In this document: positions 7,966 to 27,928 of the stretch, in pieces | How positions within the stretch are numbered: the first letter of the stretch is position 1 | Layout of the letters: every line of letters starts with the position of its first letter | Assembly (NCBI RefSeq): GCF_000208405.1 | Contig: NC_015437.1 | Coordinates: forward strand, 806,001 to 870,000 | Direction: 5' to 3' | DNA from: Selenomonas sputigena ATCC 35185 | Lineage (GTDB): Bacteria; Bacillota; Negativicutes; Selenomonadales; Selenomonadaceae | DNA: 64,000 bases | Program-made: the position numbers and the translations under genes | Notes under the pieces: model-generated | What the model was told of the DNA's origin: nothing | Databases searched by the model: none | Seen by the model: only the letters and a program-made list of their open reading frames with translations

Positions 7966-8982
7966 TCAATTCAAATTGGGCATCTTTTGGTGCAAGGTTT
8001 TGACTTCTTCCATTGACAAGTTTGTGATACGTGCAACCATATCGGTGGGAAGTCCTTCTTTGAGCATGGAAAGAGCCGTTTCTCTGCGGGTGTTTTCTGC
8101 GCCGCGTTCCATGCCTTGGGCGATGCCGCGCTCCATGCCTTGTTCATAGATGCCTGTACTCAAATTGCACATCGTTTTCATCTCCTCTTCTATATCTGTA
8201 GTCGTATCCATATCGAATTCATCTTTCAGAAGTTGCTTCTTTCTCATCGCTGGCGTTCGTGTGTCTTTGAACAGCAGACGCAGGAAGCGGATGAGCCAAT
8301 CTTCATCGGGTGGCTGCTCTTCACCGAGATAGATTGTGATGATGCTTATCAGGTCATAATCCGCATGATTGGCTTTATATTCATGAAGAATATAATGTTC
8401 GTTGAGATCGTAGCGATTGATGGAGCTTTTGCCATCGGGCGAATCCATGCAAAGCCAGATGCTGTAGACCTTTTTGAGGTCATCGTAGGATGAGCCTGTA
8501 AATTCGGTTTCTTTCTGGGATGAAATTAAACGACTCGCATAGTAGATAGCTCGTTTCAAGAGTGCATAGCCAAGTTTGGAGCGTCGCTGCGTTCTTTGTG
8601 CTTCGACGTTGATGATCAGGGTGATAAGCTCGCCCGATTTCGGAACACGCGCGTGAAAGAGGATGTCAAAACGAATCCAGCCCTCCGTGATGCCGATATT
8701 TTCCGTAGCGGAATCGAGAAACTCTTTTGGAGAGTGCAGGGTGTTTCCAACCGCATTTGTCATATCCCTGTCAATAGGAATCTCACTAATCTGCGGTGTG
8801 CCTTCGATATATTTTTCAGCAATATCGGAAATCGTCGCTTCTTTGAATTCCGGCACGGTTCGTTTGAGGAGGCGTGCCATGATAGTTCTTTGTGCGAGCA
8901 GGCGTTTGGCATGTTGATCATACGTCGGATTTCGATAATCAGACGCATGATATTCCGACGGGAGGTCTTCTTTCTGCTGCAT
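7966..8982 (-). CDS. Rpn family recombination-promoting nuclease / PD-(D/E)XK transposase-like protein
   Basis: A 338-residue protein of the Rpn/YhgA-like family. The N-terminal part has the family opening (FKEATISDIAEKYIEG replaces the usual KxLFxxF region). The PD-(D/E)XK core reads IRFDILFHA ... ITLIINVEAQ, giving the Asp and Glu-x-Gln metal ligands near residues 105-130. The C-terminus carries repeated GMERGIAQGMERG segments and a small helical domain (ALSMLKEGLPTDMVARITNLSMEEV) seen across the family. Such proteins are DNA endonucleases linked to RecA-independent recombination; a defence or mobility role here is inference. It stands alone on the minus strand between the moaC terminator and a long repeat element (9002-9287). 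Confidence 0.8.
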   Translation of the reverse strand: MQQKEDLPSEYHASDYRNPTYDQHAKRLLAQRTIMARLLKRTVPEFKEATISDIAEKYIEGTPQISEIPIDRDMTNAVGNTLHSPKEFLDSATENIGITEGWIRFDILFHARVPKSGELITLIINVEAQRTQRRSKLGYALLKRAIYYASRLISSQKETEFTGSSYDDLKKVYSIWLCMDSPDGKSSINRYDLNEHYILHEYKANHADYDLISIITIYLGEEQPPDEDWLIRFLRLLFKDTRTPAMRKKQLLKDEFDMDTTTDIEEEMKTMCNLSTGIYEQGMERGIAQGMERGAENTRRETALSMLKEGLPTDMVARITNLSMEEVKTLHQKMPNLN

Positions 8983-14666: not shown

Positions 14667-15296
14667 ATGCCGCAGGAAATCGACGGAAAAAGAAAAGCAT
14701 CCAGTCCATACAGCGCGGTCATGACACGAGAGCAGTTCTTGTTTCACGAAACGCGAATCACGGCGAAACTGCTGGATGAAGGACTTGAAAAGGATGAAAT
14801 CATAAAGAAGGTTTTTTCCGAAAATCTTTTTCAGTATCCCACAGAAAAATCTATTCGCCGTATGGTTCTTACTTGTCTGCGGCGCTTGGAGGCTTTGTCC
14901 GATCAAACATTGATCACTGCCATAGCTGTTGAATCTGGTGATGTGGCAAAGCAAATATGTCTTTATGCCATGATGCGCCAATATCGCTTGGTATGGGATT
15001 TTATGCTCACGGTCATTGGCGAGAAATATCGTAATTTGGATCATTCCTTCAGCAAGATGGATTTGCATGGATTTTTCCTGCGGCTGCAGGAGCAGGATGA
15101 TGGGGTGGCTGCATGGAGCGATCAGACGATTGCAAAACTTAGGCAGGTGCTCACGAAAATCTTGGTGGAAAACGGGTATCTGGACAGCATCAAAGCGGAG
15201 AGATTGAATCCCGTGCTGCTCAGTCCGATTTTGGAACGTGCGATACGAGAGTCTGGGCAGGAAGCAGCCCTGCCGGCTTTCAACTGTCTGGGATAG
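14667..15296 (+). CDS. brxA: BREX protein BrxA (DUF1819)
   Basis: A 209-residue protein. The family is a small helical, DNA-binding-like protein that opens most type I BREX operons. The N-terminal part (SSPYSAVMTREQFLFHETRITAKLLDEGL) and the run LFQYPTEKSIRRMVLTCLRRLEAL match the usual pattern. ATG 14667 follows CCGGAGGTG. The gene is 12 bases before brxB and its third-position use is more AT-rich than in neighbouring housekeeping genes, which suggests horizontal gain. Assignment rests on sequence plus the unmistakable operon order. Confidence 0.85.
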   Translation: MPQEIDGKRKASSPYSAVMTREQFLFHETRITAKLLDEGLEKDEIIKKVFSENLFQYPTEKSIRRMVLTCLRRLEALSDQTLITAIAVESGDVAKQICLYAMMRQYRLVWDFMLTVIGEKYRNLDHSFSKMDLHGFFLRLQEQDDGVAAWSDQTIAKLRQVLTKILVENGYLDSIKAERLNPVLLSPILERAIRESGQEAALPAFNCLG

Positions 15297-15308: not shown

Positions 15309-15866
15309 ATGAGCAAACTGAACGAGCGCCTTGACGCCCTTCGGAAGCTGGTGCAGAGTCAAGATTTTCTCAACGGAAAAGGACTGTCCAACGAGGTCAA
15401 TATTCGCATTTTTTGTTATCATCCCAAGGATGAAATGGCTGTCCGTCATTTTACGGAAAAATTGACGGAGGGTGTTGGCACGGGCTGCCGCATCATAGAA
15501 TACAACCTTTACAAAGTGTTTCTTGCCATTTGCGAGGATAAGCGCATCGCGGACAAAATCCCCGATTTAGAAAATAAAAAGGGACATAAATTCGTCTTGG
15601 GACACCTGGCGCGTATAGCAAACAATCTCGCCTTTATCGAAAAAATGAAGGCTGAGCCTCATAACGTCGGCGATGTCATTCTCATCACGGGCGTGGGAGA
15701 GGCGTTTCCCTTTATCCGTGTTCATGCGCTTTTGGATGCCATGCAGCCGCATTTTTGCGATGTGCCGATCCTGGTCATGTACCCAGGGACATTTGACGGC
15801 CGCTATGTAAGATTGTTCGACAAGCTGACACCCAATCCGTATTATCGAGCCTTTAATGTAGTGTAG
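15309..15866 (+). CDS. brxB: BREX protein BrxB (DUF1788)
   Basis: A 185-residue protein with the DUF1788 features: an N-terminal helix (SKLNERLDALRKLVQSQDFLNGKGLSNEVNIRIF, in parts), a middle KGHKFVLGHLARIANNL segment and a C-terminal VMYPGTFDG...LFDKL...YYRAFNVV. Its biochemical role is not established; it is required for BREX methylation and defence in studied systems. Second gene of the operon, ending 12 bases before the likely brxC start. Confidence 0.87.
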   Translation: MSKLNERLDALRKLVQSQDFLNGKGLSNEVNIRIFCYHPKDEMAVRHFTEKLTEGVGTGCRIIEYNLYKVFLAICEDKRIADKIPDLENKKGHKFVLGHLARIANNLAFIEKMKAEPHNVGDVILITGVGEAFPFIRVHALLDAMQPHFCDVPILVMYPGTFDGRYVRLFDKLTPNPYYRAFNVV

Positions 15867-15878
15867 GAGATGTGCCTT

Positions 15879-18800
15879 ATGATGATAAAAAACATGTTCG
15901 CCGAGGACATTGACCGCAAAATCAACGGCGTAGTCAAAGTTGAGCAGGATGAAAGCGCCATTCTCGTGCAGGAACTGGATGAATATGTCATCACGAAGGA
16001 ACTGAAAAAGCACTTTATCGCTTTTTTCAATAACTACGGCGAGTCCTTTGAAGAAAATATCTCCGATATTGGCGTGTGGATTTCCGGCTTCTTTGGCAGC
16101 GGTAAATCCCACTTTTTGAAAATGCTCTCCTATCTCCTGGAGAACAAAGAAGTGCAGGGCGTAAAGACCGTGGAGCGTTTCCGTAAGAAATTTGAGGACG
16201 ACGCCGCCGCGTTCATGCCGATTGACAAGGTCACCCGTGGAGAAACGCACACCATTCTCTTCAATATTGACGTGCAAAGTTCCGGACAAAAGGACGAAAC
16301 GGCTGTTCTTCGTGTATTTGCCAAGATGTTTTATCACTATCTGGGCTTTTACGGTGAAGATTTGAAGGTCGCAAAATTGGAGCAGTTTATCGAAAAACAA
16401 GGCAAGACCGCCGAGTTCCGTCGGGTATTCGAGGAAAAGAACGGCGCATCGTGGCTGTCCTCCCGTGATTCCTTTGCGTTCTTTGAGGACGATGTGGTCA
16501 GCACTCTGACGCAAGTCCTCGGCATGAGTGAGAGTGCCGCTGAAAACTGGTTTAACGGCACACAGACCGTGGACATCTCCATTGCCAAGCTGGTATCCGA
16601 GATCAAGGAATATTCGGATGCCAAGCCTCAGGATTTTCGGCTGCTCTTTATGATTGATGAAGTGGGGCAGTATGTTGGCGATGACAGAAGTTTGCTTCTC
16701 AATCTTCAGTCGCTGGTGGAAACGATCGGAGCTGAGTGCAAAGGAAAAGTTTGGGTGGTCTGCACCGGGCAGGAAGCCATCGACGAGGTCATCAAGGCGC
16801 GGGAAAATGAGTTCTCCCGCATTCAGGCGCGATTCAAGACGCGTCTCTCCCTCTCCTCAGCCTCGGCGGATGAGGTGATTCAGAAGCGTATCTTGAAGAA
16901 AACGCCGGACGCCCAAGAGGAGCTGGAATCTCTCTATACGCAAAACGACTCCGTGCTGAAAAACCTCTTCAGCTTCACGGAGTCGGTGAAAGATATTCGC
17001 GGCTACAACGGCGCCGCCGAATTTGCCCGGAATTTCCCCTTCGTCCCCTATCAGTTCATCCTCATGCAGAAGGTCTTTGCCGAAATCCGCAAGCACGGCA
17101 ATTCCGGCAAACATCTCTCGGGCGGCGAACGTTCCATGCTCTCGGGCTTTCAGGAGGCGGCGCAGAAAATCGAAGACAAGAACGAGTATGCCCTTGCGCC
17201 TTTCTATCTTTTCTATGACACAGTGCATACCTTCCTTGACAGTTCCATTCGCCAGGTCATCGAGCGGGCAGAACGGGCAGCCGAGGCAGGACATGGCCTG
17301 GAAATGCAGGATGTGGCTGTGCTGAAACTCCTCTACCTCGTGCGCTATGTGGACGATGTGAAAGCGACCCTCGACAATCTTGTTATCCTTATGGCGGATA
17401 AGATCAGCCTCGATAAAATCGCCGTGCGGGAGCGAGTGGGCGCGTCCCTTGAGCGGCTCCTCACGCAGAACTACATCGGTCGCGCAGGGGAAATCTATAG
17501 CTTCCTCACCGACGAGGAACAGGATATTCAGCGCGACATTTACCGCAATACCGTCGTGGATACCGCCGCCGTCGTGTCCCAAATCGGCAGCATGATTTTT
17601 GGCGATATTTATACAGCCAGGAAATATCGCTATGGCGGCAAATATGATTTTCCCCTTGACGGGATGGTGGATAACACTGTCGTAGGCACAGCGACGGGCG
17701 GCATGAAACTCAAAATCCTCACCGTAGCTGCAGATGCCGTCGAAAAAACAGACCTGCGTCTTACTGCCGAATCCGTTGGGCAGGCTTTGGTCGTTCTCGC
17801 CGACACACCTTACTATCAATCCCTTGAAAACGCCATGAAGGTGCATAAGTACGTCAAGCAGAAAAATATGACGCAGCTTCCTCCGTCGGTGCAGGCCATC
17901 ATCCGAAGCCATCAGGAAGAGGCGCGAAAGTACGAGTTGGAAGCAAAAAAAGAACTCGTCAAAGCCATAGAAACGGCGGAGTTTTATGTAGACGGAGAAC
18001 ATCTGCTGCTGAAAGGCGGCGATGCCAAGGGGATGATCGACCAGGCGCTGGAGTATCTCGTCGACCATGTCTACAGCGATCTTTCTCTGATTCGTAAAAA
18101 TGCGGACAGCGAGGCGGATATTTCCTCCATCCTGCGCGGTACGGAGCAGACCCTCTTCGGCACGGGAGCGAACAGCGAAGCCGCTGTCAAGGTGGAGGAA
18201 TATCTGGAGATACAGCACGCCAAAAAACTGCGCACCTCGATGCAGGACATCCAGAGTCGCTATAAGGGGATTCCCTACGGTTGGAAGGAATTGGACATCG
18301 CCTGTGTGGTGGCGCAGCTCATCCACGAGCAGAAGGTCACCGTGAAATATGGCGGCAGTACCATCCAGCCGAATGATCCGAAACTCCCTCAGATGCTTCA
18401 TAAGAAGAGTGAGATCGGCAGCACTATCGTTTCGAAGCGCCAGACGGTATCTCTTGCCAAAATCCGCGAAGTCCGAGAGTTCCTGCGCGATTACTTCGAT
18501 GAGATGGACGTGCCCGAGGACGAGGATGGGCTGATCCGCCACATCACAGTCCGATTCGAGGGGGAAAAGGCGCGGTATGAAAACCTCCTCGCCCTCTATG
18601 CGGGGCGCAAATACCCCGATAAACTCCTGGTTTCTTCGGCGGTAGATGCCATGAAGGAGCTTCTCTCGCACGCCAAGGACAATATGGCGCTCATTGACTA
18701 CGTAATCAAAAAGCAGGATGCGATCTGTGATCTGAAAGAACAGGTACAGAATGTCGAATCCTTCTTCAGCAATCAGAAAGCGCTTTTTGACGAGGCGGTG

Positions 18801-19421
18801 AAGTACGAGGAAGCGCTCCAACACGACCTTGAATACATCGCTAAGGATAAAGAGGCAGAGAAGGCGCTCAACACGATTCGTCTCATTACCTTGATTCCGG
18901 ACGGCGGCGGTTTCAACTATAGGCGGCTGCCGGAGCTGAACGACCTGCTGGCGAAGGTACATGCCAAGCATGATGCCATGTTGGAGGAAAAACGGCAGGA
19001 ACTTCTGAAGATTGTCGATGATTGCCTGGAAGAAATCCGCGCCAAAGCCAAGACCGAGAGCAAGGCGAGGGACATCCTTCAACAAGAAGAGGGCTATTTC
19101 GCTCGCAAGAAAGAGTATATCGCTGGCATCCGGGTGCTGACCCTCATGGACGGGCAAATGCCCAATATTTGGCTGCGCAAGGACGAGGCTATATCTCGCA
19201 TCGAGAACCTCTGCAAAGAGGATGACAAGCGGGAAGAAGAACAGAAACCATCGGTTACGGCAGGCAAAAAGCCGAAGAAAATCATCAAATCGGTCTATCG
19301 TCAGTCGATGTTCCCCAAGCGCACGATCGAAACGGATGCGGACATTGACGAATATGTGGAACATATCCGGCGGCGCATGAAAACCATGCTGAAGGACTGC
19401 GACGGCATCCGACTCGATTAG
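15879..19421 (+). CDS. brxC: BREX ATPase BrxC
   Basis: About 1180 residues, the normal size of this large P-loop ATPase. Walker A is GFFGSGKSH (Lys76, Ser77); Walker B is LLFMIDEVGQYVG (Asp260, Glu261). The rest is helical, with coiled-coil-like stretches around residues 960-1060. BrxC is part of the BREX core complex with BrxB, PglX and PglZ and probably uses ATP to act on or along DNA. I choose ATG 15879 because AGGAGA (15865-15870) is eight bases before it; ATG 15870 overlaps that site. Both leave the protein nearly unchanged. Confidence 0.93.
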   Translation: MMIKNMFAEDIDRKINGVVKVEQDESAILVQELDEYVITKELKKHFIAFFNNYGESFEENISDIGVWISGFFGSGKSHFLKMLSYLLENKEVQGVKTVERFRKKFEDDAAAFMPIDKVTRGETHTILFNIDVQSSGQKDETAVLRVFAKMFYHYLGFYGEDLKVAKLEQFIEKQGKTAEFRRVFEEKNGASWLSSRDSFAFFEDDVVSTLTQVLGMSESAAENWFNGTQTVDISIAKLVSEIKEYSDAKPQDFRLLFMIDEVGQYVGDDRSLLLNLQSLVETIGAECKGKVWVVCTGQEAIDEVIKARENEFSRIQARFKTRLSLSSASADEVIQKRILKKTPDAQEELESLYTQNDSVLKNLFSFTESVKDIRGYNGAAEFARNFPFVPYQFILMQKVFAEIRKHGNSGKHLSGGERSMLSGFQEAAQKIEDKNEYALAPFYLFYDTVHTFLDSSIRQVIERAERAAEAGHGLEMQDVAVLKLLYLVRYVDDVKATLDNLVILMADKISLDKIAVRERVGASLERLLTQNYIGRAGEIYSFLTDEEQDIQRDIYRNTVVDTAAVVSQIGSMIFGDIYTARKYRYGGKYDFPLDGMVDNTVVGTATGGMKLKILTVAADAVEKTDLRLTAESVGQALVVLADTPYYQSLENAMKVHKYVKQKNMTQLPPSVQAIIRSHQEEARKYELEAKKELVKAIETAEFYVDGEHLLLKGGDAKGMIDQALEYLVDHVYSDLSLIRKNADSEADISSILRGTEQTLFGTGANSEAAVKVEEYLEIQHAKKLRTSMQDIQSRYKGIPYGWKELDIACVVAQLIHEQKVTVKYGGSTIQPNDPKLPQMLHKKSEIGSTIVSKRQTVSLAKIREVREFLRDYFDEMDVPEDEDGLIRHITVRFEGEKARYENLLALYAGRKYPDKLLVSSAVDAMKELLSHAKDNMALIDYVIKKQDAICDLKEQVQNVESFFSNQKALFDEAVKYEEALQHDLEYIAKDKEAEKALNTIRLITLIPDGGGFNYRRLPELNDLLAKVHAKHDAMLEEKRQELLKIVDDCLEEIRAKAKTESKARDILQQEEGYFARKKEYIAGIRVLTLMDGQMPNIWLRKDEAISRIENLCKEDDKREEEQKPSVTAGKKPKKIIKSVYRQSMFPKRTIETDADIDEYVEHIRRRMKTMLKDCDGIRLD

Positions 19422-19445: not shown

Positions 19446-22400
19446 ATGAATAAGAATGCGATAAAGAAATATGCGGTATGGGCAAGGCGCGAGCTGATCG
19501 ACCGTGTGTCGAAGAAGGCGATGCGCTATGGCATTGCCCCTGAAATCCCTGCTGACCCCGAAGCGGACAGCGTTGAAGGTCGCCTTCTCTCCGATACCGA
19601 GAAGAAAGAGCGGCGTGCGCTCATCGAGAAAGTGGCAGCGCACGGCTACGAGCAGACGATGGAAGAAGCGGCCTACACTTGGTTCAACCGCTTCGCCGCG
19701 CTTCGCTTCATGGAGGTCAACGGCTATCTGCCCTCGCATGTGCGGGTATTCACCAACGATGCCGGAGAGTTCAAGCCGCAGATTCTCGCCGAGGCGATCC
19801 ATCTGGACTTGCCGGGGCTGGACAAGGAAAAAGTCTATGCCTTGAAGGAAGGCAATGACGAGGAGGCGCTCTTTCGCTATCTTATCATCGTGCAGTGCAA
19901 TGCCCTGAATGAAATCCTGCCGGGAATGTTTCAGCGACTGGAGGATTTCACGGAATTGCTGCTGCCCGACAATCTGCTCCGCGAAGGCAGCGTGATTGAG
20001 CGTCTTGTCAAGCAGGGCGATGCGGGAAGCATTCCTGAGGAGGATTGGCGCGATCAGGTGCAGATCATCGGCTGGCTGTACCAATACTACAACACGGCTT
20101 TAAATGAATTGGTATATGACGGCAATCTTTCTAAAGAGAAGATTCCAAAACATTTGCTCCCTGCGGCAACAACAATTTATACACCAGATTGGATTGTTCG
20201 CTACATGGTGGAAAATTCCCTAGGCCGCTTGTGGCTCGAAGGACATCCGAACGAAAACCTGCAAGGCGAATGGAAATACTATCTGCCTGAAGCCGAGCAG
20301 GAGGAGTCTGTGCAGAAACAGCTTGCCGAGATGCGCAAAGAATCTGCCAACCGCAAGCCGGAGGACATTCGCTGCATCGACCCCTGCATGGGCAGCGGAC
20401 ATATCCTCTGCTACATGTTTGACGTACTGGTGAAGATCTACGAGGACTATGGATATACGGCTCGTGAAGCCGCAGCATCCATCGTGCAAAACAATCTCTA
20501 TGGCCTAGACATCGACGACCGTGCGGCACAGCTTTCCTATTTTGCCGTGATGATGAAGGCGCGGCAGTATGACCGTCGCTTTTTCAGCCGTGGGATTCAG
20601 CCGAATGTGATGGCGATAGAGGAGAGCAACGGACTTGCGACTTGGGCGGAAACGGCAGGGGACAGCCTCGTTTCCGGGCAGCTCACCTTTGAGGACGATT
20701 TCATCCGTATGGCGGATTATCTGATTGAAATATTCCAAGATGCCAAGGAATATGGCTCTATTCTGACGGTGCAGGCAGATCGCTATGATGCACTCGTGGA
20801 CTTTATCGAGAAAACTGGGCAGGAGACAGGAAATCTCCTCTTTCGGGCGTGGATCGATGAAGTCGAACGAAGGATTCTACCGCTGATTCAACAGGCAAAG
20901 GTATTCTCGCAAAAATATGATGTGATTGTGACTAATCCTCCATACCTTGGAAGTACGCGTTTTAGTTTCAAGCTTAACGAGTATGTGAAGAAATATTTCC
21001 CAAATGAGAAAAGTGATTTGAGCATGGTTATGCTCAAAAAATCGCTTCAAGAAACTGCCAAAACAAATGGCTATGTGGCATTTGTTACCACGGCATCTTG
21101 GATGAGTTTGTCGAGTTTTGAAAAACTGCGTTCTTATATGTATAAAGATTGTGCTATTGACACGTTAGTTGATTGTGGCACAGAGCTTTTTGAAGGAAAA
21201 GTAGGGCATAATTCTATAGTTTCATGGGTTGTTCGCAAAACGAAATTCAATTATAGGATGACTGCTGTCCGATTGGTTGATTATTGTTATTCAAGACGGG
21301 ATGAAAAAGAGGTGGAATTTTTTAATAAGAAAAACTATTTTGTTGCCACACAGGAAAACTTTTCCAAGATTCCGGGCAGCCCAGTGGCTTATTGGGTGAG
21401 TGAGGCAATGCTTCGTTGCTTTGGAGAAAAATGCATAAAGGATTATGGCTTTGCTGGCATCGGTATGCGAACTGGTGACAACGAAAGATTTTTAAGATTA
21501 TGGTATGAAGTGTCTGCAAACAATTTTAGTATTACAAGCAAAGGCGTTATAAAATGGATTCCATATAATAAGGGAGGAAATTTTCGCAAATGGTATGGTA
21601 ATAATGAATATGTAGTTAATTGGGAGAATGATGGAGAAGAAATCAAAGATAATACACGGCTAAATTATCCTGAACTCGGAGATAATTTGGGTTGGAAAAT
21701 AAGTAATGAAAAATACTATTTTAAGCCTGGTATAACTTGGACGGGTGTAACTATGGCAAAGTTTAGTTGCCGAATATATCCAAGTGGATTTATTTTTGAT
21801 TCAGGTGCCAATGGGCTTTTCCCTTACAAAAAGCAGGATGAATCATATTTGGCAGGTTTTCTTAATACGAAAATTGCAAATGACATATTGCGAATAATAA
21901 ACCCTACAATAAACACAGGCTCTGGAACTGTAAAGTCTATACCGGTAATCAAAAGCAAGACTCAACAAAAAAAAGTTGATGAATTAACCAACCAAAACAT
22001 CTCCATCTCCCGCGCCGACTGGGATGCTTTTGAAACCTCATGGGATTTCCAGTCCCATCCTCTTGCACCTACGGCTTACGAACGCCGCGAGCAGCTTTCC
22101 TATGGCATCCACTCTGCCGAGCGCAAAAAATCGGTCTCACTTCTGACGGATCGCTATGCCTACTGGGAGCAGGCTTGCAATGATCGCTTTTCCGCATTGA
22201 AGGAAAACGAGGAAGAACTCAACCGCATCTTTATTGACATCTACGGCCTCGCGGATGAACTCACGCCCGAGGTCGAGGACAAGGATGTGACTGTGCGGCG
22301 AGCCGATCTTCCACGCGATATACGGAGCTTGATTTCCTACGCCGTCGGCTGCATGTTTGGCCGCTATTCCCTCGATACGCCGGGGCTTGTCTATGCCGGG

Positions 22401-23021
22401 GGTGAATGGGATGACAGCAAGTATAGGACGTTCCTGCCGGATGAGGATGCCATCATCCCAATATGCGACGATGAATATTTCGATGATGATATTGTCGGTC
22501 GTTTCGTGGAGTTTATCGCGACGGTTTTCGGCAAGGAAACCTTGGAAGAGAATCTGCAATTCATCGCCGATGCCCTTGGCGGCAGGGGCAGTTCGCGCGA
22601 GGTCATCCGAAGCTACTTCCTCACGGGTTTCTATGCCGATCACGTCAAGACGTATCAGAAACGCCCGATTTACTGGCTCTTTGACAGCGGGAAGAAAAAC
22701 GGCTTCAAGTGCCTCGTCTATATGCACCGCTACTGCCCGGACACCATCGCCCGCATCCGCACGGACTATGTCCACGAACAGCAATCGCGCTACCGCACCG
22801 CCATCGAGAGTCTGGAACAAGCGCGGGATAACGCCGCCACCGCAGGGGACAAGGTGAAAGCCGGAAAGAAACTGGCGGCTGTGGAAGCCCAAGCCAAGGA
22901 ACTCCTGGAATACGAGGAAAAAATCCACCACCTCGCCGACCAGATGATCGCCATCGACCTGGACGACGGCGTGAAGCACAACTACGCGATTTTTCAGGAT
23001 GTATTGGCGAAGATCAAGTGA
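19446..23021 (+). CDS. pglX: BREX adenine-specific DNA methyltransferase PglX
   Basis: A 1191-residue type I PglX, of normal length. It marks host DNA by N6-adenine methylation so that BREX spares it. SAM motif I is CIDPCMGSGH (Asp312, Gly316-Gly318), and the catalytic motif IV is TNPPY (Asn497-Tyr500). The part after the catalytic core, about residues 485-850, holds the expected specificity region; its DNA is visibly more AT-rich (20.9-22.0 kb) than both ends of the gene. The C-terminal part has long helices (LEQARDNAATAGDKVKAGKKL). The frame is open throughout. GGGGGAGAG precedes the ATG. Confidence 0.94.
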   Translation: MNKNAIKKYAVWARRELIDRVSKKAMRYGIAPEIPADPEADSVEGRLLSDTEKKERRALIEKVAAHGYEQTMEEAAYTWFNRFAALRFMEVNGYLPSHVRVFTNDAGEFKPQILAEAIHLDLPGLDKEKVYALKEGNDEEALFRYLIIVQCNALNEILPGMFQRLEDFTELLLPDNLLREGSVIERLVKQGDAGSIPEEDWRDQVQIIGWLYQYYNTALNELVYDGNLSKEKIPKHLLPAATTIYTPDWIVRYMVENSLGRLWLEGHPNENLQGEWKYYLPEAEQEESVQKQLAEMRKESANRKPEDIRCIDPCMGSGHILCYMFDVLVKIYEDYGYTAREAAASIVQNNLYGLDIDDRAAQLSYFAVMMKARQYDRRFFSRGIQPNVMAIEESNGLATWAETAGDSLVSGQLTFEDDFIRMADYLIEIFQDAKEYGSILTVQADRYDALVDFIEKTGQETGNLLFRAWIDEVERRILPLIQQAKVFSQKYDVIVTNPPYLGSTRFSFKLNEYVKKYFPNEKSDLSMVMLKKSLQETAKTNGYVAFVTTASWMSLSSFEKLRSYMYKDCAIDTLVDCGTELFEGKVGHNSIVSWVVRKTKFNYRMTAVRLVDYCYSRRDEKEVEFFNKKNYFVATQENFSKIPGSPVAYWVSEAMLRCFGEKCIKDYGFAGIGMRTGDNERFLRLWYEVSANNFSITSKGVIKWIPYNKGGNFRKWYGNNEYVVNWENDGEEIKDNTRLNYPELGDNLGWKISNEKYYFKPGITWTGVTMAKFSCRIYPSGFIFDSGANGLFPYKKQDESYLAGFLNTKIANDILRIINPTINTGSGTVKSIPVIKSKTQQKKVDELTNQNISISRADWDAFETSWDFQSHPLAPTAYERREQLSYGIHSAERKKSVSLLTDRYAYWEQACNDRFSALKENEEELNRIFIDIYGLADELTPEVEDKDVTVRRADLPRDIRSLISYAVGCMFGRYSLDTPGLVYAGGEWDDSKYRTFLPDEDAIIPICDDEYFDDDIVGRFVEFIATVFGKETLEENLQFIADALGGRGSSREVIRSYFLTGFYADHVKTYQKRPIYWLFDSGKKNGFKCLVYMHRYCPDTIARIRTDYVHEQQSRYRTAIESLEQARDNAATAGDKVKAGKKLAAVEAQAKELLEYEEKIHHLADQMIAIDLDDGVKHNYAIFQDVLAKIK

Positions 23022-23033
23022 GGAGGGATTTTC

Positions 23034-24506
23034 ATGACGCAATCAGGCATAAATTCCATGCTTACTTTGGAGTATATGCAGACTGCCAAAGAGAACAAGT
23101 ATTTTGACAGGAAATCTGCCAGAATCAGACCTTCCGATCTTGCACCGATTATCTCTGCATTTGCCAATGCAGACGGTGGAACGATTGTTCTCGGCATCAG
23201 CGATAAAACGCATACCGTGGAAGGTATAAATTTCATCGGCGAAGACCATTTGAACGAATTGATAACGGCGCCGAAAAACTGCTGCAAGCCTATGCCGAAA
23301 TTTGAATATGAACTGCTTGACGTTGAAAATGCGAAGGGACAGGCAGACCGTCTTTTGTTGCTCCATATCAAAAAGAGCGTAGATTACATCGTTCGCACCA
23401 GTAATGACAGCACTTATCTGAGGATAGGCGACAAAACCAAGGAGATGAAGGGCGAGGATTTAATCAACTTGGAATATGCCAAAAGTACCCGGAACTATGA
23501 GGATGAAATCAACCGAGATGCTACGCTGGAGGACTTGGATGAGGAACTCTTGAGAGAATACCGGCATCGCCTAGAGGCCGATGATTCCACCAACCATCAT
23601 GTGCTGAAGGCAAGAGGCTTTATAAAGACGGTGGATGATCGCGAATTTTTAACCCATGCAGCAGTGCTTCTTTTTGCCAAGAACATCGCTCAGTTTTATC
23701 CGAATTGCCGTATCCGCTTCCTACGGTACGAAGGAACTACCGCTATGTCCGGCACTAAAATCAACATCAGCCGCGATAAAAGCATCGAGCTTCCCTTGCT
23801 TCGTATTGTGGATGCCGCTAAGACATTCCTTGCGACCCAACTCCGAGAATTCACCATGCTCGACGTGAAAAGCGGAAAATTCCGCATTGTGCCGGAGTAC
23901 CCGGAGTTTGCTTGGCTGGAGGGGATTGTCAACGCTGTCACGCACCGTGAGTATGCCATGAGTGGGAATTTCATCAAGGTTAGTATGTATGATGACCGAT
24001 TGGAAATCGAAAGCCCGGGCAAGCTCCCCAATATTGTTACTTTGGCAAACATCAGGGAAACGCGCTACTCGCGCAATCCTCGGATTTCCCGTGTCATGAC
24101 AGAGTTCGGCTGGGTACGGGAAGTGAATGAAGGCGTCAAGCGCATCTACGAGGATATGGCAGAACTTTTTTTGGATGACCCGGTGTACAGTGAGCCTGGC
24201 GAGTCTCTCCGTCTGCTTTTGAAGAATAATATCGTCATGCGGAGGATGCGTCAGGAACTGTATGCCTTGAACAATGTAGGCATTTCGAGATGGAATCAAC
24301 TGGATGCTACGGAACAGGCTATTATGGCCTATATCCTGAATCGGGGGGCTGCCAGCAGGGCGCAGTTATCTGCTTATATAGGGAAATCCGACAATACGAT
24401 CAGGACTCGCCTAAAAACTCTGATGGCCAAGGGATTCTTAAAGGCCAACGGCAATACCTATGACCCCAATCGCACTTACGAGGCGGGGCCTCTATTGACG
24501 GAATAG
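23034..24506 (+). CDS. AlbA_2 domain / ATPase-like predicted regulator within the BREX operon
   Basis: A 490-residue protein of the AlbA_2 (Schlafen-like, divergent AAA) group. Residues about 10-135 form the AlbA_2 domain (ESxxxEFK-like opening replaced by AKENKYFDRKSARI; ISAFANADGGTIVLGISD; DSTYLRIGDKT). The middle resembles the HATPase-like C-terminal domain of COG2865-type regulators (EGIVNAVTHREYAM, IKVSMYDDRLEIESPGKLP). A winged-helix segment ends the protein (RAQLSAYIGKSDNTIRTRLKTLMAKGFL). It could bind DNA or RNA and control the operon, or act as an effector. AGGAGGG precedes ATG 23034, 12 bases after pglX, so it is co-transcribed. It is not one of the six core type I BREX genes. Confidence 0.85.
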   Translation: MTQSGINSMLTLEYMQTAKENKYFDRKSARIRPSDLAPIISAFANADGGTIVLGISDKTHTVEGINFIGEDHLNELITAPKNCCKPMPKFEYELLDVENAKGQADRLLLLHIKKSVDYIVRTSNDSTYLRIGDKTKEMKGEDLINLEYAKSTRNYEDEINRDATLEDLDEELLREYRHRLEADDSTNHHVLKARGFIKTVDDREFLTHAAVLLFAKNIAQFYPNCRIRFLRYEGTTAMSGTKINISRDKSIELPLLRIVDAAKTFLATQLREFTMLDVKSGKFRIVPEYPEFAWLEGIVNAVTHREYAMSGNFIKVSMYDDRLEIESPGKLPNIVTLANIRETRYSRNPRISRVMTEFGWVREVNEGVKRIYEDMAELFLDDPVYSEPGESLRLLLKNNIVMRRMRQELYALNNVGISRWNQLDATEQAIMAYILNRGAASRAQLSAYIGKSDNTIRTRLKTLMAKGFLKANGNTYDPNRTYEAGPLLTE

Positions 24507-24510
24507 AAAA

Positions 24511-24674
24511 TTTGCGAGGTTAGAACGGCGTTTTGCGAGGTTCAGGGGCAATTTTGCGAGGTTCAAGCCACAGCAATGCCTTTCCTGCCCGCCAAACCTT
24601 GATTTTAAGCCACGTGAGCCGCTTATAAGGCTGGGCGTGTTTTTGCGAGGTTCAAAAGCGATTTTGCGAGGTTC
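24511..24674 (+). repeat. 21-bp-period repeat array between the AlbA_2 gene and pglZ
   Basis: Five copies of (T)TTTGCGAGGTT(C). The GCGAGG cores begin at 24514, 24535, 24556, 24645 and 24666, so spacings are 21, 21, 89 and 21 bases. The first three follow the stop codon at once; the last two lie after a 76-base stretch with AAGCC / GGCT dyads. A 21-base period is two helical turns, which fits protein binding, and also seven codons, which fits a decayed coding repeat. Confidence 0.85.
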
Positions 24675-24738
24675 CCTGACAGCACTCCGCATAGACATGG
24701 AAAAGAATCACGATAACTACAGATGAGGGAGGAATGAC

Positions 24739-27330
24739 ATGGACATAGAACAGATTATCGCCGATCTAAACCGCCGCTTTGCCGAGCCTTTGCCGGAGTT
24801 TTATCGGCGGCGCATGATCGTCTGGCATGACGAGGAGAAGGAGTTTGTCGATAAAATCGACGAGATACGACTGAATAATGCCAAAATTGCCATTCTCACA
24901 GGAACAAACTATTTTTCTGTGAAAAAACTTCTCGCCGTGGACGATACGGACAGCAACTATCTTCTCTATTCTCCCTTCGCCTACGAAACGCTGGAGGATA
25001 ATTGGCTTCTGGATATCGAACTGTACAGCGAAGAGTTCCGCGCTGATCTCATTTCCATGTGGCTGAGCGAGATGGGACTGCCGCAGACGCCGAGCCTTAG
25101 AAGCGCCATCAAGCCCTACCGCAAGTTTATGAACGCCAAGGAACGCCGCAAGAAAATAATGGCGCAGACGAATCTTCCCACTACTGCCGGAGGATTGCAC
25201 CTCTCGATCATGGCGGCTTTGGCAGGGATAAAAGACGCAAAGCCCGCCGGAATTATCAAGGCGGTTCTGAAGGCAGGACTAAATCATTCAGCCAATAATC
25301 TGTGGCAGGATTTTGAAGGCTACCATATTGCTGATGTGTTTTGGCGTATGGTTGCCCAGGGTACGGGGTACGCGCAGGAAAATCCCACCCTTGGGGCATT
25401 GGCTGTCCATATCCTTCTGACAGCTGTCAGCCGCACCCTGCGGCAGGAATTTTTGAAGGGGCTGGATACATATATATCCACGGCTCATGCGGCTTTTTGC
25501 TATGACCTTGTTTCCGATTGGCTCTATGCCGAAGACCATCATGCTTTGCACGAAATTGCCGAATTTGCAGAGTCTGAAGCGAATCTTCATGAGCGATTTA
25601 TGAAACTTGAAATCGCTGATTTGTTGCATACTGCCATATTCCCTTGCGTGAACGAGATTATCCTCGTAAAGCTCATGCGGGATATGGAGAAAAACGTCAT
25701 CGATCCGAAATTCGTCAAGGAAATCGTGGAAAAGCGACGTACCTTCGCTTGGTATGAGGCAAGCCGCAATTTTTACGAAGGGCTATACCAAGCAGCGAAT
25801 ATGCAAGAGTTTTTCAAGAGCCATGCAGACGGCTTCCATGCGATAGCGCCGAAAAAAATCTGGCAGGGATACACCGAGGAATATTATCGCTTCGATACCT
25901 TTTATCGCCGATTCCACCGAAGCTACGACGCCAGTTTGAAAAATTGCCATGCGGATTTATCGGATATGTTTGCCGATATCAAAGATATGGCAGAAGGGCT
26001 GTATGTCAACTGGTTTTTGGAGGAACTTGGAACAAGTTGGTTGAACGCTGTAGAGGAGAGTCTTTCTGCACACGGAAAAGCCTCTGATATTCCCATGCAG
26101 ACAGATTTTTACCGTCACAAGGTTTATCCTGCGGATTCGAGAGTTTATGTCATAATTTCCGATGCGCTCCGCTATGAAGTGGCTGCTGAACTTGCCGACG
26201 ACCTCCGACGGGAAACACAGAGCAAGGTGGAACTTGGTTCCATGCAGGGAATATTCCCCACGATTACCAAGTTCGGTATGGCGGCGCTCTTGCCTCATAA
26301 AAGACTTTCCGTGGAGGAAAAGGCCGGCAGATTGTCCGTTTTGGCGGACGGCGAATCGACAGAAGCGCCCCGGCGGGATAAAATTCTGAAAGCCGCCAAT
26401 CCCAAAAGCGTCGCACTGAAATATAAGGATATGCTCGGCATGAAGCGACCGGAGCGGAGCGCCTTGGTACGCGGCATGGATGTGGTGTATATTTACCACG
26501 ATACCATCGACGAGGCAGGACATAGTGAAAGTTCTATTTTCGGGGCGTGCGGCGAGGCCATCGAAGAAATCAAGAATATGGTGCGGATCATTACCGGCGA
26601 GTTCAGCGGGACACGCATCTTCATTACCGCTGACCACGGCTTTCTCTATACCTTTAATCCGCTCCGGGAAGATGACAAGGTGGATAAAATTACAAAGAGC
26701 AGCCAGGATGTGGAAATCGCCCGCCGCTATGCCATCGTGCGGAAAGGCGCTGCGCCGGAGTATCTTCTGCCTGTAAAATTCTTGGATGGGGATACGGAAT
26801 ATGATGCATTCGCCCCTCGTGGCAACCTTCGCATAAAAATGAAGGGCGGCGGCCTGAATTTCGTACATGGCGGGATAAGCCTTCAAGAGATGGTCGTGCC
26901 GCTGATCGACTACCGTTATCTCAGAAACGACTCCAAAGAATACAAAAAAAATAAAGCACGGTACGACACTAAGCCTGTAACGCTAAGCCTCTTATCCTCC
27001 AGCAGAAAAATCAGCAATATGATATTTTCTCTGAATTTTTACCAGAAAGAGGCTGCGGCGGGAAATAGAGAGGCGGCTGTTTATACCGTGTACTTTACGG
27101 ACAGCAACGGGAAAGTTGTCAGCGATACGGTGCACATTATCGCCGATAAGACTTCGGATCATGCCGAAGAACGTACGTTTAGGGTAGGTTTTAATTTGAA
27201 GTCGCTCAAATACGACAGCAAAGAAAACTACTATCTGGTCATCGCCGACGAGAGCGGTCTGCCCGTCAGGCAGGAGAAATTCTCCATTGATATCGCCTTT
27301 GCGGTGGATGAATTTGATTTTTTTAGCTAG
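24739..27330 (+). CDS. pglZ: BREX phosphatase-like protein PglZ
   Basis: An 863-residue type I PglZ with the alkaline-phosphatase superfamily core: metal-site motifs VIISDALRYEVAAEL (Asp475) and FITADHGFLYT (Asp632, His633), and HDTIDEAGHSES between them. The N-terminal third is the family-specific helical region starting ADLNRRFAEPLPEFYRR and containing RRMIVWHDEEKEF. PglZ is essential for defence in studied BREX systems and joins the PglX complex; recent work on the family points to nuclease or phosphodiesterase activity. GAGGGAGGA lies before the ATG. Its stop codon overlaps the left end of repeat copy D. Confidence 0.93.
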   Translation: MDIEQIIADLNRRFAEPLPEFYRRRMIVWHDEEKEFVDKIDEIRLNNAKIAILTGTNYFSVKKLLAVDDTDSNYLLYSPFAYETLEDNWLLDIELYSEEFRADLISMWLSEMGLPQTPSLRSAIKPYRKFMNAKERRKKIMAQTNLPTTAGGLHLSIMAALAGIKDAKPAGIIKAVLKAGLNHSANNLWQDFEGYHIADVFWRMVAQGTGYAQENPTLGALAVHILLTAVSRTLRQEFLKGLDTYISTAHAAFCYDLVSDWLYAEDHHALHEIAEFAESEANLHERFMKLEIADLLHTAIFPCVNEIILVKLMRDMEKNVIDPKFVKEIVEKRRTFAWYEASRNFYEGLYQAANMQEFFKSHADGFHAIAPKKIWQGYTEEYYRFDTFYRRFHRSYDASLKNCHADLSDMFADIKDMAEGLYVNWFLEELGTSWLNAVEESLSAHGKASDIPMQTDFYRHKVYPADSRVYVIISDALRYEVAAELADDLRRETQSKVELGSMQGIFPTITKFGMAALLPHKRLSVEEKAGRLSVLADGESTEAPRRDKILKAANPKSVALKYKDMLGMKRPERSALVRGMDVVYIYHDTIDEAGHSESSIFGACGEAIEEIKNMVRIITGEFSGTRIFITADHGFLYTFNPLREDDKVDKITKSSQDVEIARRYAIVRKGAAPEYLLPVKFLDGDTEYDAFAPRGNLRIKMKGGGLNFVHGGISLQEMVVPLIDYRYLRNDSKEYKKNKARYDTKPVTLSLLSSSRKISNMIFSLNFYQKEAAAGNREAAVYTVYFTDSNGKVVSDTVHIIADKTSDHAEERTFRVGFNLKSLKYDSKENYYLVIADESGLPVRQEKFSIDIAFAVDEFDFFS

Positions 27331-27416: not shown

Positions 27417-27928
27417 ATGGATTTTATGGCAGAAGAAAAGGAAATGGACGATATGCTGCTCCAAGATGAGCCGGAAGTTACCGATACCCAAGAGGGTACA
27501 GACAGCACGAGGGAAATCCTCAAGCGGAAACTCCGTGAGCATTTTGACGGCAAAATCGTCCGCAAAGACCTCACCAAAAAATAAAAGAAGGGGCGAATGT
27601 CCCCGTCTATGTCCTTGAATTCTTGCTGGGGCAGTATTGCAGCTCGGATGACGAGGAGATTATCGAAGGCGGCATCCAGAAAGTCAAGAGAATACTGGCG
27701 GATAATTTCGTCCGTCCCGATGAAGCGCAAAAGATACTCTCCAAGCTTCGCAGCCAAGGCAGCCATACGGTTATTGATTCCCTTACCGTGCGGCTTGACA
27801 TCAAGAAGAACATCTATGTGGCTAACTTTTCGAATCTGGGACTTACCAATGTGCCAATCGCCGATGAATACCCGGAGAAGTACGATCGCTTGTTTCCGCA
27901 AGCTGCAGCTGTCTTTGCCAGTCATTGA
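27417..27928 (+). pseudogene. brxL: brxL remnant: frameshifted and truncated Lon-like BREX protein
   Basis: The N-terminal part of BrxL is recognisable in two frames. ATG 27417 reads 55 codons (...LREHFDGKIVRKDLTKK) to TAA 27582. One base back, the next frame continues IKEGANVPVYVLEFLLGQYCSSDDEE, KVKRILADNFVRPDEA and NFSNLGLTNVPI, and stops at 27928. The shift lies in a run of six A (27576-27581); seven would restore the frame. Even then the product would be about 170 residues, against the usual 650-700, with the whole AAA+/Lon-like protease part missing. The rplU promoter begins seven bases after the stop, which marks a deletion junction. GAGCGAGG precedes the ATG. Confidence 0.88.

Follow-up and report, generated by a model that had tools for sequence, protein, structure and literature searches.

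Five identical 11-bp boxes, arranged in two clusters directly behind a gene for a Schlafen AlbA_2/ATPase/winged-helix protein, probably constitute a DNA-binding array for the product of that gene, as judged from comparison of sequences across its homologues. The gene and its boxes interrupt a BREX operon within a 64,000-nucleotide stretch of the Selenomonas sputigena ATCC 35185 genome, hereafter the window. That the boxes are real and tied to the gene we regard as practically certain.

Boxes at 21-bp steps between an AlbA_2 gene and pglZ

The array occupies the space between the stop codon of the AlbA_2/HATPase_c_4/winged-helix gene and pglZ of a type 1 BREX operon, and consists of exact copies of TTTGCGAGGTT on the + strand at steps of 21/21/89/21 bp (Table 1). 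An earlier note on this DNA had described boxes at 21-base steps within clusters, and the exact 11-mers bear this out: the cores that it placed at 24514, 24535, 24556, 24645 and 24666 are the GCGAGG inside the boxes. The longer 13-mer TTTTGCGAGGTTC is complete at four of the five boxes, with box 1 reading ATTTGCGAGGTTA instead. Across the whole genome (2.57 Mb, one contig), TTTGCGAGGTT occurs nine times as an exact copy, always on the + strand; the array accounts for five of these occurrences, and the remaining four stand singly. When up to three mismatches were allowed, just one 21-bp box pair was found in this genome outside the array, at three mismatches. Self-similarity at lag 21 is not exceptional, as parts of the coding sequence in the window reach similar scores at lags 15, 21 or 24. 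We therefore did not rely on periodicity, which alone is insufficient, and judged the array real because boxes and spacing are kept, and spacers are not, behind homologues of the gene in other genomes.

We do not claim strict helical phasing from one cluster to the other, since the distances of 79, 86 and 89-91 bp seen among the loci correspond to 7.5 to 8.7 turns. A CRISPR array was rejected as well: CRISPR repeats measure about 21-50 bp and alternate with unique spacers of similar length, whereas the window has five copies of an 11-bp box separated, within clusters, by 10-bp gaps. We also make no claim for a central ATATCAAGG element between the clusters: it recurs in loci L058, L122-L125 and L051, but most loci lack it and its background rate is 15%.

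The surrounding genes brxA, brxB, brxC, pglX and pglZ lie in a single operon, as expected of BREX type 1, and the operon contains no intact brxL. A brxL remnant was seen at 27417-27928 of the window; it comprises the N-terminal part, is frameshifted after about 55 codons and stops early, after roughly a fifth of the usual length. In a BREX operon of Ligilactobacillus salivarius, pglX and pglZ are separated by only 20 bp with nothing between them, and the gene and array of the window therefore look like an insertion.

Table 1. Coordinates of the array, the adjacent gene and the BREX genes in the window, and of the upstream sites in two related loci
Feature	Position	Strand	Remarks
brxA	14667-15296	+	earlier BREX operon gene
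brxB	15309-15866	+	earlier BREX operon gene
brxC	15870-19421	+	earlier BREX operon gene
pglX, BREX-1 methyltransferase	19446-23021	+	upstream neighbour of the AlbA_2 gene
Schlafen AlbA_2 gene, presumed cognate protein	23034-24506	+	Pfam; AlphaFold model; PDB matches
Winged-helix codons (aa 421-485)	24294-24488	+	predicted secondary structure; MarR/ArsR-like matches
Box 1, TTTGCGAGGTT	24511-24521	+	4 bp past the AlbA_2 stop codon
Box 2, TTTGCGAGGTT	24532-24542	+	21 bp on
Box 3, TTTGCGAGGTT	24553-24563	+	21 bp on
Inter-cluster gap	24564-24641		box-to-box distance 79-91 bp in relatives; length roughly kept, sequence poorly kept
Box 4, TTTGCGAGGTT	24642-24652	+	89 bp after box 3
Box 5, TTTGCGAGGTT	24663-24673	+	21 bp on
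pglZ, BREX-1	24739-27330	+	downstream neighbour; start 65 bp past the last box
Upstream four-box site, L065 (G029)	8557-8698		reverse-complement coordinates
Upstream four-box site, L066 (G031)	8773-8914		reverse-complement coordinates

The adjacent gene encodes a predicted Schlafen, ATPase and winged-helix protein

Domain searches placed the protein in its family with the order SLFN_AlbA_2 (aa 20-139), HATPase_c_4 (aa 311-396) and C-terminal winged helix, all with Pfam scores above cut-off (PF04326, 61.2 bits; PF13749, 78.5; PF13412, 22.9). Residues E20 and K27 and an acidic residue at position 25, in the putative RNase domain, are conserved across nine aligned sequences. The AlphaFold model (mean pLDDT 82.9, pTM 0.67) matched Schlafen N-domains, and its secondary structure predicts a recognition helix at aa 453-465. 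Residues 409-490 matched MarR/ArsR-type winged helices, with Z values reaching 11.5 across alignments of about 60-80 residues. The best structural match, DIP2311 (PDB 3lmm), covers residues 1-404 with Z 23.1; its rmsd of 12.1 Å over 335 residues indicates a match of separate domains rather than of one rigid body, and as an uncharacterised protein it is uninformative about the boxes. PADLOC returned a pAgo model as its top match, but this covers the AlbA_2/ATPase part, and we rejected identification as an Argonaute system.

Box layout is kept in close relatives and box sequence changes in distant ones

A search for boxes beside homologous genes elsewhere, which the earlier note had put forward as a check, was positive in several families and phyla. 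Within the Selenomonadaceae, exact 21-bp box pairs stand directly behind the homologues of G146, G164, G167 and G122. Behind homologues of 78-79% identity, the layouts read 21/89/21 in G167, 21/79/21 in G146 and 21/90/21 in G122, compared with 21/21/89/21 in the window, and the box sequences of these four genomes are the same save for a single base change in a box of G167. Spacers of 11 bp between the boxes show a mean identity of 45% between genomes, and two of their 11 bases are the T's flanking the next box. Constant spacing over unconserved spacer sequence indicates spatial constraint and not recent duplication.

The homologue shared by G029 and G031 (65% identity) is followed by a different box, TTGTAAGGTT, with gaps of 91/21. 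In both of these loci, four further boxes, more diverged and with gaps of 21/90/21, form a second site in front of the gene (Table 1); this site has five mismatches of 40, versus at least 16 for unrelated sites in the locus. All other scanned loci have boxes on one side of the gene only. A further set was noted on contig 145 of G122 (L014 1435-1532), with three exact boxes on the - strand, two of them 21 bp apart. Two Succinivibrionaceae genomes carry an exact 21-bp box pair that is well conserved between them (L037 7790-7821, L038 2207-2238). Exact pairs from Succinivibrionaceae, Fusibacter and one IMG/VR contig (L037, L038, L040, L042) were left out of the comparison, as no homologue appeared in the flanking sequence covered.

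Further homologues, at about 40-65% identity, come from other families and classes of the phylum, from Streptococcus and Fusobacterium and from IMG/VR contigs, and are followed by boxes of their own. Steps of 10 bp separate the boxes TTGTTAGGTT, TTCCTAGTAC, GTCCTAGTAG, TTTTAAGTAG and TTTATAGCAG, as well as the longer runs of GATACAGTAG (19 copies) and TTTATTGTAG (15 copies); TTTCGAGTAG boxes follow at 11-bp steps, TTTCTAGTAG boxes at 10 or 11 bp, and TTTCGAGTAA boxes as composite 20/70 units. On the tree, three changes are needed to explain the 10-bp layout, which means that loci have moved between layout classes on more than one occasion. In G292, G711 and G569 the boxes occupy the opposite strand, at 21- to 22-bp steps (G292 gaps, 21/86/21); G161 and G162 have boxes on both strands. 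The phage homologues L105/L106 and L113 showed no clear array, and a tblastn search of plasmids and phages with a second query added no new homologues. The Streptococcus dysgalactiae type I restriction-modification (R-M) locus has 19 near-perfect copies of its 10-bp box (L102 5444-5634), an array that is likely prone to copy-number change.

Arrays recur across the subfamily and co-vary with the predicted recognition helix

We applied a uniform test to the subfamily, scoring for each member the highest self-match over lags 9-24 in the 300 bp behind the gene, with a threshold of at least 11. The threshold was reached by 21 of 32 members, at lag 21 in 11 cases, lag 10 in eight, and lags 11 and 9 in one each. 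Among other genes of the same loci, five out of 176 did so (Fisher p 2e-16, an optimistic value since the rows are related). The same self-match test scored none of 28 upstream regions and one of 16 remote COG2865 relatives.

Box sequence follows the predicted recognition helix in several groups. Proteins with a (G/R)KSDNT(I/V)R helix share TTGCGAGGTT; the KRSSGTILKRL helix goes with TTGTAAGGTT, the GKSGTTVNNRL helix with TTGTTAGGTT, and SRPY helices with TTTTAAGTAG, TTTATTGTAG and TTTATAGCAG. With box consensus sequences assigned by hand, box distance correlated with recognition-helix distance once the remainder of the protein had been corrected for (partial r 0.40, Mantel p 0.0005, 20 loci). 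The converse correlation, of the box with the rest of the protein after correction for the helix, was about as strong (0.38). The co-variation thus partly reflects shared ancestry; it is consistent with recognition of the box by the helix rather than proof of it.

Gene and array occur in and outside defence loci

PglZ is encoded in only seven of the 22 genomes that carry the gene, indicating that the array is not a BREX-specific control element. BREX settings comprise the window, G122 and G342. In G122 (L069 232-7078), pglX is split into two ORFs, between which lie a PIN-domain gene, the Schlafen-winged-helix gene and the array; about 12 residues are missing at the pglX junction. Type I R-M genes are the other recurrent neighbours. 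The unit stands between hsdS and hsdR in G029 and precedes hsdR in G031, where little beyond the 3' end of hsdS is present upstream, and two plasmid records have it next to type I R-M genes; neighbours of this kind were seen in S. dysgalactiae and, by translated sequence, Fusobacterium records. Integrase genes are neighbours in phages, in a phage-like Streptococcus record and in G351, and no defence neighbour was recognised in G146, G164, G166 and G167. In G225 (L077 811-9486), the homologue adjoins a type II CRISPR-Cas9 operon (cas9), and the contig ends near the stop codon, with no array visible there.

From the array to the next gene, the distance is 65 bp in the window (pglZ), 36 bp in G029 (hsdR) and 77 bp in G122 (second pglX part); in G342 the following gene is further away. 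The position of the array before hsdR, as before pglZ, fits a gating of the downstream gene. Some units are solitary, with little downstream to control, and one has a terminator-like sequence soon after the array.

Read-through control and competing explanations

The earlier note had suggested that the boxes could be an operator array for the winged-helix protein encoded upstream, controlling pglZ separately from the earlier genes. One part of this suggestion, that the boxes are an array of sites for that protein, is strongly supported by the comparison with homologues. The array may also control pglZ separately, but a classical operator is unsupported, as a scan limited to sigma-70-like promoters found none on the + strand near the array (22800-24800). 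Given that the array lies behind the gene, shortly before pglZ, hsdR or the second pglX part, and that no promoter was recognised, we favour limitation of read-through. The best overall explanation, and in our estimate a moderately probable one, is a cognate array that carries a local nucleoprotein complex limiting read-through; on whether local transcription control is the main role of the array, our judgement is evenly balanced.

In molecular terms, the C-terminal MarR/ArsR-like winged helix would read a box of about 10 bp, composed of TTNNN, then AGG, AAG or AGT, and finally T/A-rich sequence. With direct repeats spaced two helical turns apart (20-21 bp), or a single turn (10-11 bp) in relatives, protomers would lie next to each other on one helix face, and the 3 + 2 boxes of the window, in clusters about 90 bp apart, may serve as one composite site. 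The bound protein would form a local nucleoprotein complex and lower transcription from its own gene into pglZ or hsdR, with local feedback on defence effector levels as the putative outcome. Gene and array would move as a unit into BREX, type I R-M and phage lysogeny modules and into solitary places. What the sequences show is co-occurrence, spacing, box-protein co-variation, strand reversal and the absence of RNA structure; binding itself, cooperativity and repression or roadblock action are what we infer. The location of the array behind the gene and not in front of it, which holds except in two closely related loci, was counted against this reading, as were the solitary units, the phage homologues with no clear array and the share of ancestry in the co-variation.

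Were the boxes instead to act in the transcript, as a 3' UTR or intercistronic element, they could be bound by the AlbA_2 RNase domain and either limit the protein's own mRNA or provide a type III-like repeat-RNA antitoxin. The domain is Schlafen-like, the array would be co-transcribed with the gene, and boxes are on the sense strand in most loci. We consider this quite unlikely all the same: RNA folding of the array revealed no excess structure (z +0.68), the array had no Rfam match, the steps follow helical turns with unconserved spacers, and boxes are antisense in three loci, as expected of DNA sites and not of RNA sites, and present on both strands in G161 and G162. On the same folding and Rfam results, a ToxIN-like type III toxin-antitoxin system, which calls for a structured repeat RNA, was rejected. 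Opposite-strand boxes in three loci also argue against a decayed coding repeat, which the earlier note had allowed for and which would consist of seven-codon repeats left over from a former longer 3' end of the gene. Although 21 bp equal seven codons and one open frame runs through the array, the 89 bp between the clusters are no multiple of 3 and put them in different reading frames, and relatives use 10-bp steps; we reject this account as scarcely credible.

Helically phased direct repeats, in two clusters next to the gene of the presumed binder, recall plasmid parC and iterons, and would suit a centromere- or iteron-like nucleoprotein site on which the protein polymerises or clusters, either for marking, holding or segregating DNA or for keeping the Schlafen RNase inactive until infection releases the enzyme. 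Arrays of up to 19 copies of 10 bp and a plasmid centromere-binding winged-helix protein among weak Foldseek matches point the same way. However, the winged-helix matches are of generic MarR/ArsR types, the settings are chromosomal operons, and no partition or replication gene was recognised among the neighbours examined, which in the window are BREX genes, making such a site unlikely. It is also rather improbable that a Schlafen RNase with a GHKL-type ATPase is parked inactive on its own array and/or senses infection there, by way of lost DNA, displaced protein or the local state of the DNA, with release leading to tRNA or RNA cleavage and the bound state holding the neighbouring restriction effector in check; if true, box and recognition helix would co-diversify, insulating each unit from others. 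A mobile cassette whose recombination or insertion ends are the boxes, marking the points of gene entry into operons, would account for operons being interrupted at different points (the pglX/pglZ junction in the window, the inside of pglX in G122) and for the boxes flanking the gene on both sides in G029 and G031. Yet boxes are one-sided in the other scanned loci, the unit lacks a recombinase, and array length and box vary freely, so that we deem cassette ends very improbable.

Relation to known systems

Our search of the literature, largely open-access, on the protein family together with repeats, restriction genes and operators yielded no description of the array, and we know of no DNA target for Schlafen-ATPase-winged-helix proteins. 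A rapidly diversifying, gene-attached array is a candidate for such a target and would allow the binding of DNA by the winged helix to be tested in a simple shift assay, and the matched protein-box pairs represent a natural set for decoding winged-helix specificity. These observations suggest that Schlafen-ATPase-winged-helix proteins are regulators or DNA-tethered switches, beyond being RNases.

Clustered direct repeats at helical-turn spacing with an adjoining binder gene are familiar from parC of plasmid R1 and from iteron arrays, which differ from the window array in their proteins and their role; no replication or partition genes were recognised here. Sites of the BREX regulator BrxR lie in front of the operon and are not known to form a direct-repeat array behind the gene. 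Like the protein proposed here, BrxR (PMC9122589) and the wider WYL family at defence islands (PMC9122601) represent locus-encoded DNA binders controlling BREX, but BrxR has a WYL domain and is unrelated to AlbA_2/HATPase. The protein class beside BREX is already known: the accessible text of PMC12839542 describes proteins with a Schlafen-family RNase, a minimal histidine-kinase-like ATPase and a winged helix-turn-helix, the same three-part make-up as the window protein, and places them next to BREX or BREX-related loci in at least 1017 taxa. That text presents them as a backup effector and does not mention an adjacent box array. A precedent for the proposed roadblock action is the R-M controller C.Kpn2I, a locus-encoded DNA binder that, according to the portion of the report available, tunes R-M expression through a roadblock to RNA polymerase elongation (PMC6237814); as described there, it differs in being a small controller protein that blocks elongation on its own gene with no long array.
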